Assembly: GCA_902386135.1 (NCBI GenBank)
Contig: CABMIB010000026.1
Location: forward strand, 1-41,030
DNA: 41,030 nt
Direction of reading: 5' to 3'
Source: an uncultured archaeon
GTDB taxonomy: Archaea; Halobacteriota; Methanosarcinia; Methanosarcinales; Methanoperedenaceae
Position numbers and translations under genes: made by a program. The notes beneath the pieces are model-generated. The model searched no databases. It saw only the letters and a program-made list of their open reading frames with translations, and was not told the origin of the DNA. How positions within the stretch are numbered: position 1 is the stretch's first letter; each line of letters begins with the position of its first letter. This document shows, piece after piece, positions 14,564 to 39,588 of this stretch.

Positions 14564-15667
14564 TTAAGTTTCCGTAATGACCTTAATACTATTTGCATAT
14601 TTGCCCGCCTCTCCTAAAGATATTTCGCGTGTTCCTCCCGTTCCAAGGAACGTGGTCACAGGTTCATCAGGCTGCATGGTACACCCGGTTTGAGGAATAT
14701 CCACAGCATGTCCGGTATTCATGTATTTAATTAACCTGTCTGAGAGCTTCCGATCTATAACGACTCTCCTGTCTGCGTACAGTATGGTCTTGGCTGCAAA
14801 ACAGCCGGCTTTTTTTGGTTTCGGAAGCCCGCCTTTAAATGACTCCACATGTGCTTTAAAAATATTCATCCCAGTTGACAGCTCCACAGTGTCGATACTC
14901 CCCTGGAAACGCGGATTGACCTCAATGGCGACTATCCCGTTTTCCGTCTGGATGAAATCTACGCCGTTTGTACCCGCAAGCCCGAATTCCAGAGCTATCT
15001 GCGTCGAATATCTTATCATTTCTTCACTAAATCCTGTAACGAAGGGTGTGATATTGCCGCAATAAGCAAAAGACAGTCTTGTAAGCCATGGAACCCCTAT
15101 CAACTGCTCATTCAGGGATACGACAACAGCCTCGTCTCCTGTACCTATTAAAGAAGCGCTGCACGGTACGCCTTCTACAAATTCCTGTGCTATGAGCTCG
15201 CCTGCGTCATCCCGTGCGCTAAAAAGAGCCAGTTCATCTTCATTCCTGGCGATAGCATTCCTCATGCCCCCGGAACCCGACCTTGGTTTTATCATCAGGG
15301 GAAATCCAAGTCCCGACGCTTTATCCAGTGGTTCGGTCTCAGGATGAGGTATATCCATCGACCTGAATTTCTTTGCTATCTTTAACTTGTCATTCACTTC
15401 TTCTATTACCGACAGCCTGTTATTCAGGATGTTTTTGAATTCCAGTTTTTCAAAGCCCGGTCCGAGTACCACAGCATCGACATCGCCAAAAGAACCGGCC
15501 AGCTCATATATTCCCGTTTCAGGGATATTTCCAAAAGAGCGCGCCTTATCCGCGCATTTAATCATGTCCGCATCGCTGAAATGGTCAAGGGCATAGACAG
15601 TGTATCCCGCTTTTTTTGCAGAGCATACAATACTGCGGCTGCTCTTGCAAATCACAAGGATTTTCAT
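14564..15667 (-). CDS. ATP-grasp carboxylate-amine ligase-like protein (COG2232 type)
   Basis: 367 residues. The N-terminal Rossmann-like part (MKILVICKSSRSIVCSAKKA) precedes an ATP-grasp core: FPLMIKPRSGSGGMRNAI (ATP lysine and flexible loop), LIAQEFVEGVPCSASLI, then GTNGVDFIQTENGIVAIEVNPRFQGSIDTVE, which carries the metal-binding Glu and Asn. Such enzymes form amide bonds through acyl phosphates; the COG2232 group is archaeal and its substrate is unassigned. Its start overlaps the stop of trm56 by 4 bp, so it belongs to this tight operon. Confidence 0.85.
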   Translation of the reverse strand: MKILVICKSSRSIVCSAKKAGYTVYALDHFSDADMIKCADKARSFGNIPETGIYELAGSFGDVDAVVLGPGFEKLEFKNILNNRLSVIEEVNDKLKIAKKFRSMDIPHPETEPLDKASGLGFPLMIKPRSGSGGMRNAIARNEDELALFSARDDAGELIAQEFVEGVPCSASLIGTGDEAVVVSLNEQLIGVPWLTRLSFAYCGNITPFVTGFSEEMIRYSTQIALEFGLAGTNGVDFIQTENGIVAIEVNPRFQGSIDTVELSTGMNIFKAHVESFKGGLPKPKKAGCFAAKTILYADRRVVIDRKLSDRLIKYMNTGHAVDIPQTGCTMQPDEPVTTFLGTGGTREISLGEAGKYANSIKVITET

Positions 15668-16197
15668 TTGCTCTTTACCTCTTTACCTTTCCTGCATGGG
15701 ATGATCTCGATCTCGCCGCCTGTAAACCGGGAGCTTAGAGGATCTTTGCCCGATGATGCATTAAGCCTATCAAGCACGATCGCAAGGGCTGCAACCTCGG
15801 AGTGCGGCTGGTTCCCCACAGCGACATTCCAGTCTGCAAGCTCATAGACCTCAGGCGGCACTTTTTCAGCCCCCACGACTATCATAAGGCTGCCTGTCGT
15901 GATCTCATCGACAGCATCCGGAAGATTGATCCCGTACATCGTGAGGTGCATCACTTTGCCTCCGGCTTCTTTCCATTTTTTGATCTCACTTTTCCAGCTC
16001 GTAATTCTCCTGACGTAGAAAGAGCCGCCCCACCTGTCTTTTACTTCGTCCAGGCTTTTTTCGATACCTGCGTCATCAGAATCAAGGAGCACCCCCTCAG
16101 CGCCCAGGGCGCGCGCTGTGAGCGCCACATGCGTGGTTATCCGCTGGTCCCTTTGAATTCTGTGCCCGAGTCTTAAAATTACTATTCTCATACTCAA
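15664..16197 (-). CDS. trm56: tRNA (cytidine(56)-2'-O)-methyltransferase
   Basis: 177 residues of the archaeal aTrm56 SPOUT family: MRIVILRLGHRIQRDQRITTHVALTARALGA at the N-terminus, a central YGINLPDAV, then VVGAEKVPPEVYELADWNVAVGNQPHSEVAALAIVLDRL, the knotted SAM-binding region. It methylates the ribose of C56 in the T-loop of archaeal tRNAs. It overlaps the neighbours at both ends by 4 bp, so translation is coupled. The first or third Met could be the start. Confidence 0.95.
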   Translation of the reverse strand: MSMRIVILRLGHRIQRDQRITTHVALTARALGAEGVLLDSDDAGIEKSLDEVKDRWGGSFYVRRITSWKSEIKKWKEAGGKVMHLTMYGINLPDAVDEITTGSLMIVVGAEKVPPEVYELADWNVAVGNQPHSEVAALAIVLDRLNASSGKDPLSSRFTGGEIEIIPCRKGKEVKSK

Positions 16198-17432
16198 ATG
16201 TAAACAGTTTCTCCGTTGGCAGGAGCAATCGAGTCCACGCCCAACTCTTCTTTTATCCAGCTCGCAAAGCCGCCCGCATTATCCCCGTGAACAGGGATAA
16301 CTGTTTGCGTTCCGTTATCGCAGGATTTTTTTACGACTTCTTTTAGCTGCGCATCCCCGCAGTGCGCCGAGAAATCGTAGAGCTCAAGCCTGCATTTGAG
16401 GTGGGTTATTTTGTTCCTGTCTTCTATATACCCGCTTTCCAGTGCTTTTCTCCCGTTCGTTCCTTCGACCTGGTAACCCGTGAAGTGGATCTTTGATCTC
16501 GGGTCGTCATATATCTCGCTGATATAATAGAGCACAGGACCACCGTTCAGCATCCCGGCGCTGGTCACGATCACAGAGGGTTCGCTGATAATATCCTTGC
16601 GCTGCTCATGCTCTACGATATTTAAGCTTGTGAATGCCTTTCCAAGTTTGTTTATGTCCTTCACATGTTCAGGCGATCTTTTTATCAGGTTGAATACATC
16701 GACTCCCATGCCATCGACATAAGCATGAATCCCGTGCTTTCTCAGGATGAGCATTATTTCCTGCGTTCTCCCTATACTGAAAGCTGCGATCACGGCTTTC
16801 CCGCCGATGTCAAGGGTATCTCTTACCGATCCGATGAACCGCTCTTCCAGTTCCTTCCTGGGTGTGTGGTTCTTTCCAAAATACGTGCTCTCTATCAGCA
16901 GTATATCGTTTTCCGGATAATCCATATCAGCGCCTTTCTGGAGTTCGGTCTCGATGGTGTTTAAGTCCCCGGTATAGAACAGGCTCTGGTTGCCTTTTAC
17001 AAGGTGTACCGAAGATGAGCCGGGAATATGACCTGCATCATACAGGCATGCCTGGTAGCCATGTGTCTCGAACTCCTGCCTGTATTTTACTGCTCTTGCG
17101 CGCCTCTCGAACTCTTGTATCTCTTCGTTGTAGTAAGGTATGTTATGACCTCTATTCTCGCTTATCTTGAGGGTATCCCTTGCCAGCAGTCCTGACAGCT
17201 TTGATGTCGTGCCCGTACAGTATATCTCCGGCTCAAGGTCCATGAGATTGGGCGCAAGCCCGCAATGGTCAAGGTGCCCGTGCGAGATTATCAGGGTTTT
17301 CGGACGCATGCCGTTCAAAGGATAGGTTGGCGGGTCTGTTGGTTTGATGCCGTAGTCAAGAAGCAGTTCCTCATTGACAAGTATTGCGGACCTTCCGACT
17401 TCGCCTGCTCCTCCTAAAAATCGTATGTTAAT
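16194..17432 (-). CDS. aCPSF2-like MBL/beta-CASP ribonuclease with apparent AUU start
   Basis: 412 residues if begun at ATT 17432-17430. The reading frame holds N-terminal family sequence NIRFLGGAGEVGRSAILV and LLLDYGIKPTDPPTYPL, followed by the metal site SHGHLDH (about 50-56), AGHIPGSSS, YTGDLN and beta-CASP motifs SIGRTQEIM and HFTGYQVEGT. This is the KH-less aCPSF2 layout; relatives are RNA endo/5'-3' exonucleases. Between an in-frame TGA at 17444 and the TTG at 17318 there is no ATG, GTG or TTG. GAGGCGA lies 4 bases upstream of the ATT, at a normal distance. The TTG at 17318 would delete the first strands of the fold. Confidence 0.82.
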   Translation of the reverse strand: MNIRFLGGAGEVGRSAILVNEELLLDYGIKPTDPPTYPLNGMRPKTLIISHGHLDHCGLAPNLMDLEPEIYCTGTTSKLSGLLARDTLKISENRGHNIPYYNEEIQEFERRARAVKYRQEFETHGYQACLYDAGHIPGSSSVHLVKGNQSLFYTGDLNTIETELQKGADMDYPENDILLIESTYFGKNHTPRKELEERFIGSVRDTLDIGGKAVIAAFSIGRTQEIMLILRKHGIHAYVDGMGVDVFNLIKRSPEHVKDINKLGKAFTSLNIVEHEQRKDIISEPSVIVTSAGMLNGGPVLYYISEIYDDPRSKIHFTGYQVEGTNGRKALESGYIEDRNKITHLKCRLELYDFSAHCGDAQLKEVVKKSCDNGTQTVIPVHGDNAGGFASWIKEELGVDSIAPANGETVYI

Positions 17433-17470
17433 GTTATCGCCTCAGCTTGTTGTAGTTTATAGCATAAAGA

Positions 17471-17546
17471 TAAAACAACGAACTAATACGAACTCTTTGC
17501 GAACTCAGGTTGAGTTCGACGTTAGTCCGTTCCAAACCCGTTGTTT
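17471..17546. repeat. Inverted array of ACGAACT-type units
   Basis: The left arm has ACGAACT at 17478, ACGAACTC at 17488 and GCGAACTC at 17499. The right arm has GAGTTCG (17512-17518), AGTCCGTT (17524-17531) and CCCGTTGTTT (17537-17546), the complements in inverted order around loop AGGTT. The outer arms AAAACAACG and CGTTGTTT also pair. It matches the architecture of the element at 2154-2234. It lies upstream of the aCPSF2-like gene, whose TATA-like GCTATAAAC is near 17457. Confidence 0.65.
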
Positions 17547-38073: not shown

Positions 38074-38763
38074 TCAGTCCTCGATCGTGTATTCGAACAC
38101 CAGTTGCGCTACGACGAAAAAAATGACATCATAGACAGCGAGTATTTGAAGTTCGCCTGCTATATCGGAGATTTGACCCGATGCAAGCATCGTCCCTGTT
38201 GCGGTCACGGCTGAGAGTATCACGGGGAGCAGTACAGGGAACAGGATTACAGGAAGCAGAATCTCACGCGTCCTTGTGTTCACAGCCAGCGCCGAGAGAA
38301 GCGTGCCCACAAAGATAAATCCGAAAGTCCCCAGCACCACGACCAGCAGCATGCCGGTGATATTTTTAATATCATAGCTGAAAAGCACGGCAAAAACCGG
38401 TATAGTTATGATTTCCATCAGGAACATCAGTACGGCATTGGAGATCACTTTCCCGTTGTATATATCGCTCCTGTCCACAGGGCAAAGCTTCAGACCTTCA
38501 AGGCAGCCTTCCTCTTTTTCGCCTGCAAACGACCTTGAAAGTCCGAGCATCCCTGCGAAAGTAAATGCTATCCATAGTATTCCGGGAGCGAGCAGGTCGA
38601 CGATCTTTTTATTTATGCCCTGAACGAATATCGATGCCTCGTTCCCGAACGCGAAGCTGAATATAACTATCACAAGAAGCGCAAAAATCATCATGGAATT
38701 GAGCATCTGCTTTGTGCGGAACTCTGCTCTCAGGTCTTTGCCTGCTATTTCAAGGAACTTCAT
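38074..38763 (-). CDS. ccmB: Heme exporter protein CcmB
   Basis: 229 residues from the ATG at 38763, which overlaps the ccmA stop by 4 bp; an upstream extension falls inside ccmA. MKFLEIAGKDLRAEFRTKQML is followed by about six membrane helices (MMIFALLVIVIFSFAFG, LLAPGILWIAFTFAGMLGLS, ILLPVILFPVLLPVIL) and the EEGCLEGLKLCPVDRSDIYNGK loop that contacts the ATPase. It forms the permease half of the CcmAB transporter. Confidence 0.92.
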   Translation of the reverse strand: MKFLEIAGKDLRAEFRTKQMLNSMMIFALLVIVIFSFAFGNEASIFVQGINKKIVDLLAPGILWIAFTFAGMLGLSRSFAGEKEEGCLEGLKLCPVDRSDIYNGKVISNAVLMFLMEIITIPVFAVLFSYDIKNITGMLLVVVLGTFGFIFVGTLLSALAVNTRTREILLPVILFPVLLPVILSAVTATGTMLASGQISDIAGELQILAVYDVIFFVVAQLVFEYTIED

Positions 38764-39467
38764 GTGCGCTCCACTACATGTTTCTCGTATATCGCCCTGC
38801 ACTGCACCAGGTCGCGGATTTCGGTCTCGCTCATCTCGTGAGCTATGCTGCCGTTTGTCAGGATGATAGCCCTGTCGCACATTGCAATGCCCCGCTCTAT
38901 GTCGTGGGAGATGAGTACACGGGTCTTGTCGTGCGCGTTCGTGCTGGAAAGTATCCTGTCAAAAGTGGCGCTTGCATGCTGGTCCAGGCCGGTGTAAGGC
39001 TCATCGAGCAAAAGTATGGGCGGGTCGTGGATCAACGCACGCGCTATCGAGAGACGCTGTTTCATTCCCCTGGAGAATGTCCTCACGCGGTCGTTCATCC
39101 TGTAGCCCAATCCCACCTGTTTTATCAGTTCGTCTATCCGGGCCTCAAGGTTCTTTGTATTGTACATCCTTCCGAAGAACAGCAGGTTCTCGGCAGCGGT
39201 CAGTTCATGGTACAGGTATGTCTCGTGGGAGATCACGCCGATTTTCTTCCTGATCTCGATTGGATTGTCCTTGATATCCATACCATCTATAGTGACCCTG
39301 CCTGCCGTGGGGCTTACAAGGGTGGAGATTATTTTGATAAGAGTAGTTTTTCCTGCCCCGTTGGGACCGAATATGGTCAGGAACTCGCCCTGCTCGATCT
39401 TGAGATTGATGTTCCGGAGAACTATATTGGTGCCGAATGCTTTTGAGAGGTTTTCAATGGAGATTAT
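38760..39467 (-). CDS. ccmA: Heme exporter ATPase CcmA with apparent AUA start
   Basis: 235 residues if it starts at ATA 39467-39465. The residues after it, ISIENLSKAFG, are family-like and lead to Walker A GPNGAGKTT (34-42), signature FSRGMKQR (about 131-138) and Walker B ILLLDEP (about 151-157). AGGTGA lies 7 bases upstream. Between the in-frame TGA upstream and the ATG at 39281 there is no ATG, GTG or TTG in frame, and that ATG would remove Walker A. ATC at 39464 and ATT further on are other candidate starts. It drives the heme transporter with CcmB. Confidence 0.85.
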   Translation of the reverse strand: MISIENLSKAFGTNIVLRNINLKIEQGEFLTIFGPNGAGKTTLIKIISTLVSPTAGRVTIDGMDIKDNPIEIRKKIGVISHETYLYHELTAAENLLFFGRMYNTKNLEARIDELIKQVGLGYRMNDRVRTFSRGMKQRLSIARALIHDPPILLLDEPYTGLDQHASATFDRILSSTNAHDKTRVLISHDIERGIAMCDRAIILTNGSIAHEMSETEIRDLVQCRAIYEKHVVERT

Positions 39468-39588
39468 ATGGAGTTCACCTGCTTTTTGTTTAAATAGGGC
39501 TACTCAAGTTTATATTTTTCTCTTCGAAATCATCTCAGGTGAGAAAGTTTTAACCTACAGTCTCAGTTAACTCATCGGGATTTTAGAA

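Follow-up and report, generated by a model that had tools for sequence, protein, structure and literature searches.

The gene of an aCPSF2-like beta-CASP nuclease of Methanoperedens, a methane-oxidizing archaeon, appears to start at an AUU codon, and this reading is strongly supported by comparison with related genomes. At the start column, all 43 genomes compared have ATT, ATA or ATC (hereafter AUH), and none has ATG, GTG or TTG. It is very probable that translation begins at this AUU with the ordinary initiator Met-tRNA and that the weak codon has been fixed in a small set of genes, where it would be kept to limit initiation or to make it factor-dependent. The gene is located in a window of 41 030 nucleotides (the whole stretch of DNA analysed). 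As far as can be judged from the sequences, the trait is wider than the single gene of the preliminary description: it is conserved, it recurs in ccmA of the same window and it extends to several further genes. Methanoperedens and its relatives thus seem to start some of their proteins deliberately at a weak codon.

The aCPSF2-like frame spans positions 17444–16194 of the minus strand, with the stop codon at 16196–16194. The coding sequence proper (16194..17432, minus strand) has 412 codons counted from the AUU start codon (17430..17432). The frame is closed upstream by an in-frame TGA (17442..17444), and 17 of the 28 family members aligned likewise have a stop at codon −4. Read on the minus strand, TGA (17444–17442) is followed by GGC GAT AAC, by ATT (17432–17430) and then by AAC ATA CGA TTT TTA GGA GGA GCA GGC GAA GTC GGA AGG. 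The first canonical start codon, TTG at codon 39 (17316..17318, minus strand), lies exactly 38 codons beyond the ATT, and the interval from TGA to TTG contains no ATG, GTG or TTG, as the preliminary description had stated with correct coordinates. Its placing of ATT 17432 at normal Shine–Dalgarno spacing also holds: GAGG (17443–17440) stands 7 nt before the codon, in agreement with the GGAGG-to-ATG spacings of this genus, which peak at 6–7 nt. The Shine–Dalgarno sequence, GAGGCGAU, is strong, and its extended form GAGGCGAT (17436..17443, minus strand) is near-invariant in the family. Of the 16 matches to the pattern GAGGYGATNNNATH in the window's own genome, the aCPSF2 site alone precedes a long coding frame devoid of canonical starts. 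The downstream neighbour is the gene of the tRNA 2'-O-methyltransferase aTrm56 (15664..16191, minus strand; Pfam PF01994), whose ATG at 16191 lies 2 nt past the aCPSF2 stop.

Three Pfam domains score above cut-off in the product: metallo-beta-lactamase (PF00753), beta-CASP (PF10996) and RMMBL (PF07521). The best NCBIfam model, aCPSF1 (TIGR03675), matches at its positions 175–628 only, leaving the N-terminal 174 unmatched, and its score of 256 bits falls far short of the cut-off (580); the protein is therefore assigned to the KH-less, aCPSF2-like type. Unlike aCPSF1/FttA, the 412-residue product has no N-terminal KH domains, and a separate, longer aCPSF1-like paralogue is encoded in the same genome (G000:C107). 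The aCPSF2 of Sulfolobus is a 5'–3' exoribonuclease of RNA decay (PMC3792030); its likeness to the present protein, as a beta-CASP nuclease without KH domains, is one of architecture. The catalytic residues D26, H51-G-H53-L-D55-H56, H135 and D156 (the HxHxDH motif and the motif-1 Asp) are invariant.

The 38 N-terminal codons without ATG, GTG or TTG (17319..17432, minus strand) carry RFLGGAGEVGRS; the residues that they encode hold GGAGEVGRS and the metal-ligand Asp26 (LLLDYG), and HGHLDH follows at residues 51–56. The peptides FLGGAGEVGR and SAILVNEELLLDYGIKPTDPPTYPLNGMR are encoded at or upstream of TTG 17318. Seventeen full or near-full relatives, 74–95% identical, align from residue 1, and the solved structures 3af5, 2xr1, 2ycb, FttA 9bct and human CPSF73 align from residue 2–4. 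A model built with AlphaFold2 from 15 relatives was of poor quality (mean pLDDT 53) and was left unused. Among the 28 family members, the first and second positions of codons 2–38 are conserved and the third varies, with synonymous change and codon periodicity from codon 2 onwards. The 38 residues are therefore the family N-terminus, as had been proposed, and a start at TTG 17318 would, as also proposed, remove the first beta-strands. This TTG would be the choice of gene finders, it is the first canonical codon in frame and TTG belongs to the normal start codons of archaea; on this view, the conservation upstream of it would be incidental. Such a start is nevertheless extremely improbable, since it would cost the protein Asp26 and the conserved GGAGEVGRS, no Shine–Dalgarno sequence precedes the TTG, codons 2–38 evolve as coding sequence and TTG-39 is present in 4 of the 28 members only. 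None of the canonical codons further into the frame is conserved. The earliest of them is codon 60 or 64 in 8 of the 28 genomes, which puts it beyond H51, H53, D55 and H56 of HGHLDH, so that no canonical start there could yield an enzyme with its metal site.

The start column was compared in 43 genomes, most of them metagenome assemblies: 29 from the window's own family (f1; Methanoperedens and relatives) and 14 from a second family (f3) of the same order. In the window's own family, it comprises 18 ATT, 9 ATA and 1 ATC (28 loci), and one ATA in a third genus; in the second family, it comprises 7 ATT, 5 ATA and 2 ATC (14 loci). A Shine–Dalgarno core precedes the column in 43 of 43 genomes, and no in-frame ATG, GTG or TTG lies upstream in 38 of the 43 loci. 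The five exceptions (L045, L047, L050, L053 and L061) have such a codon, and another start is therefore possible there. Comparison among relatives locates the start, reveals no canonical alternative to it, and brings out both its conservation and the avoidance of AUG. The AUU start of the preliminary description is confirmed in this way, and the alignment of homologous starts that it had proposed as a check gives AUU, AUA or AUC throughout.

Nearly every position of the block from codon −4 to codon −1 is conserved in the 28 family members, as expected of a Shine–Dalgarno sequence, and from codon −5 upward none is. A strong nested inverted repeat lies between an aminotransferase gene and aCPSF2 (17478–17545, minus strand) and is also present in the closest relative (L021); among the members folded, a strong leader hairpin is found only in these two.

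A start at a different non-canonical codon in the vicinity, for instance the ATA of codon 3 (17426), which is close by and resembles AUG, is very improbable: many relatives have CTA, TTA or CTG in its place, and codon −1 is variable, whereas codon 1 is always ATH and stands at the spacing preferred in the genus. The chance that a sequencing error, a pseudogene, RNA editing or a frameshift out of an upstream mini-ORF conceals a canonical start is practically negligible. In some relatives, the mini-ORF ATG AGG CGA TAA does overlap the Shine–Dalgarno sequence, but the position of its ATG is not conserved (CTG, ATG, TTG, TCG or AAG). The frame runs uninterrupted through its 412 codons, AUU cannot become AUG by A-to-I editing, and independent assemblies agree. 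In 18 of 18 independent Methanoperedens contigs, ATT or ATA stands behind the same GAGGNGAT leader, which rules out the sequencing error restoring ATG or GTG that had earlier been named as a way to overturn the AUU start.

Outside these two families, the aCPSF2 gene is organized differently. In a third family (f4), ATG lies two codons upstream of the column in 10 of 10 genomes, without a Shine–Dalgarno core. In the Methanosarcina family (f5), one Methanosarcina-like genus (g26) has CTG at the column in 21 of 23, and the other genera mostly have ATG. Taken with the AUH codons of f1 and f3, the f4 and g26 patterns indicate that aCPSF2 start codons are unusually weak throughout the order. In several of the CTG-bearing genomes of the Methanosarcina-like genus (loci compared: L075–L079 and L090–L118), no canonical alternative lies upstream, and a conserved CUG start in aCPSF2 of this genus is possible.

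A survey of the same window identified an open reading frame (38760–39503, minus strand) with 71 codons free of ATG, GTG and TTG that span the Walker A motif GPNGAGKTT. It encodes an ABC ATPase (PF00005), and the genes after it encode CcmB and a cytochrome c assembly protein, so the product was named CcmA-like. CcmA is a cytochrome c maturation protein, and the host organisms depend on multihaem cytochromes. The predicted protein (MISIENLSK..., 38760..39467, minus strand) would start at AUA (39465..39467), behind the Shine–Dalgarno sequence AGGTGA (39475..39480), which is AGGAGA in most relatives. The same column is ATA in 22 of 22 genomes of the window's own family, ATT in 4 of 4 of f3 and ATG in 2 of 2 of f4, the latter providing a direct outgroup control. 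Of all the evidence, this shows most cleanly that the column is a start codon at which AUG and AUA or AUU interchange. Canonical calling would place the start at ATG 39281, with loss of Walker A.

N-termini that score as coding but lack a canonical start were sought by coding potential in a 700-kb portion of the related genome G001, where 657 genes were called. The survey recovered aCPSF2 and a handful of other genes, roughly 1 per cent. A control genome (400 kb) yielded one or two separate candidates as well, and rare AUH starts may therefore reach wider in the order. An unsupervised expectation-maximization model of start sites in which any codon could serve as a start was noisy in its non-canonical calls for Methanoperedens and the control genome alike and was dropped.

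Two of the further genes have comparative support. They encode a TrkA-N/DHH-type protein and a Csl4-like S1 protein, labels that, like radical-SAM-like below, come from our reading of the sequences and not from a family search. The TrkA-N/DHH gene (G001:C7:82979–84457, plus strand; also L195 and L213–L229) has a conserved GGAGGCTTTNNN-ATA/ATC start, and nearly every genome of f1 and f3 shows ATA or ATC 7 nt past GGAGG; the column is ATG in G010 and TTG in a genome of the Methanosarcina family (L208). In the Csl4-like gene (G001:C7:180606–181352, plus strand; compared at L159, L205–L207, L233–L239 and L281–L289), the conserved N-terminus IRIKRKK has only AUU and GUU codons at its start, where genomes of the Methanosarcina family have ATG. 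Its start could be either of two adjacent codons.

The components expected to control start-codon choice look normal. G001 has one standard initiator tRNA with a CAU anticodon, A1 with U72 and a GGG:CCC anticodon stem, as read from its sequence. A search of G001 for an initiator-like tRNA with a different anticodon gave none, and a second initiator as the cause was rejected for this genome. Loss of KsgA/Dim1, which raises non-AUG initiation elsewhere (PMC7897474), was rejected because the protein is encoded in 24 of 24 genomes tested, and loss of aIF1 was rejected for the genomes examined, where its gene is present, with an ATG start. The simplest mechanism is therefore one in which the Shine–Dalgarno sequence positions Met-tRNAi on a codon mismatched at its third base.

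The AUH codons might also be merely tolerated, through a relaxed choice of start codon in these families and drift without regulatory benefit. The presence of the trait in several unrelated genes, the ATG of the TrkA-N gene in one genome and the frequent switching of the third base among T, A and C all agree with this, and we regard it as quite possible, though on balance doubtful. On the tree of 42 tips, the third base of the aCPSF2 start is T in 25, A in 14, C in 3 and G in none, with about eight changes by parsimony. A to G is an easy change, yet AUG is absent from all 43 genomes; by contrast, G is seen in at least one genome at 76 of 80 invariant fourfold sites (26 f1 genes). A neutral model fitted to fourfold sites gives a probability of 0.011 for observing no G. 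Selection against AUG at this start is moderately supported by these figures, and the third base may avoid G for non-regulatory reasons. Drift is also at odds with the ATA kept in every f1 ccmA, with the normal aIF1, KsgA/Dim1 and initiator tRNA, and with the use of ATG by most genes (301 of 377 Shine–Dalgarno-supported starts).

On the preferred reading, that of a weak codon under selection, GAGGCGAU would place the 30S subunit, from 7 nt away, at AUU 17432–17430, where the ordinary initiator Met-tRNA (CAU) would pair with A and U and mispair with the third base; the product would be a protein of 412 residues with Met at its N-terminus. The same weak codon would have been fixed in aCPSF2, ccmA, the TrkA-N gene and the Csl4-like gene in Methanoperedens and the second family of the order, and would either limit initiation or tie it to the stringency set by factors such as aIF1. 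We infer Met incorporation, low expression and regulation of aCPSF2 from this scheme. By analogy with the AUU codons of bacterial infC and pcnB, the codon is most likely kept because initiation is limited or factor-dependent, low or tunable output being the likely advantage. There is, in our estimation, an even chance that the two families hold a fixed set of AUH-initiated genes (aCPSF2, ccmA, TrkA-N/DHH, Csl4-like and probably more) under selection against AUG, which would constitute a natural archaeal class and probably a layer of start-codon control hinging on initiation-factor stringency.

In E. coli, genes that start naturally at AUU are a textbook rarity. The AUU of infC is conserved in relatives and, like the one described here, replaces AUG behind a Shine–Dalgarno sequence. 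The infC product, translation factor IF3, controls its own synthesis through this codon (Butler et al. 1987, as cited in PMC9845219). The archaeal case differs in that the product is a nuclease and not a factor discriminating against its own start codon, and the gene of the archaeal factor aIF1 starts with ATG. The second chromosomal AUU case reported from E. coli is pcnB, encoding poly(A) polymerase I, in which AUU limits expression (Binns and Masters 2002, as cited in PMC9764084). The pcnB product resembles the nuclease in being an RNA-decay enzyme, and its level is kept low by the weak AUU; however, pcnB is bacterial and has a poor ribosome-binding site, whereas the present trait involves at least four gene families in two archaeal families, with strong Shine–Dalgarno sequences. 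In aCPSF2, AUH occupies a column without canonical alternative behind a Shine–Dalgarno sequence at normal spacing. Relatives bearing AUG at the same column are found for ccmA and the TrkA-N gene; for aCPSF2, ATG is at the column in other genera and two codons upstream in a related family.

The pcnB example (as cited in PMC9764084), together with the sharing of the trait by aCPSF2, whose Sulfolobus counterpart acts in 5'–3' decay (PMC3792030), and the Csl4-like protein, could mean that AUU ties the synthesis of the nuclease, and of Csl4, to 5'-end events that the nuclease itself controls. Such autocontrol of RNA decay is unlikely: ccmA and the TrkA-N protein have no known link to RNA decay, and the leader beyond the Shine–Dalgarno sequence is not conserved. 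A dependence on initiation factors has a parallel in the work on Sulfolobus and Pyrococcus, where start selection depends on aIF1, which disfavours non-canonical starts (Sulfolobus data as cited in PMC6237735). By this property, aIF1 is the likely discriminating factor here, and the output of AUH starts should fall at high stringency. That work differs in being in vitro, and we found no mention in it of natural conserved AUU or AUA genes. Among open-access papers, we found no report of AUU or AUA starts in Methanoperedens or of CUG starts in Methanosarcina aCPSF2.

A conserved set of archaeal genes with AUU, AUA and AUC starts would offer a natural system in which to test start-codon fidelity. 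Such starts also cause standard gene finders to cut the front off these proteins: annotation restricted to ATG, GTG and TTG strips them of catalytic parts, so that aCPSF2 loses its metal-binding motif and CcmA its Walker A.

Two other genes of G001 show unusual sequences at their 5' ends. In a radical-SAM-like gene, fragmentary in G001 (G001:C7:453787–454362, plus strand), AGGAGG-ATTTTAT-ACG is conserved in three genomes (L192, L193 and L210), with ATG nearby in the homologues L231 and L232; a start at ACG is possible. A RuvC/DUF460-like gene (G001:C7:560112–560933, plus strand; L194–L202 and L211–L217) lies behind a conserved GGAGGGCTTTA[AG]-AGG-TAT-AA[AG]...ATA-GCN, and its start could be AGG (7 nt) or ATA (8–9 nt after AAAGG).
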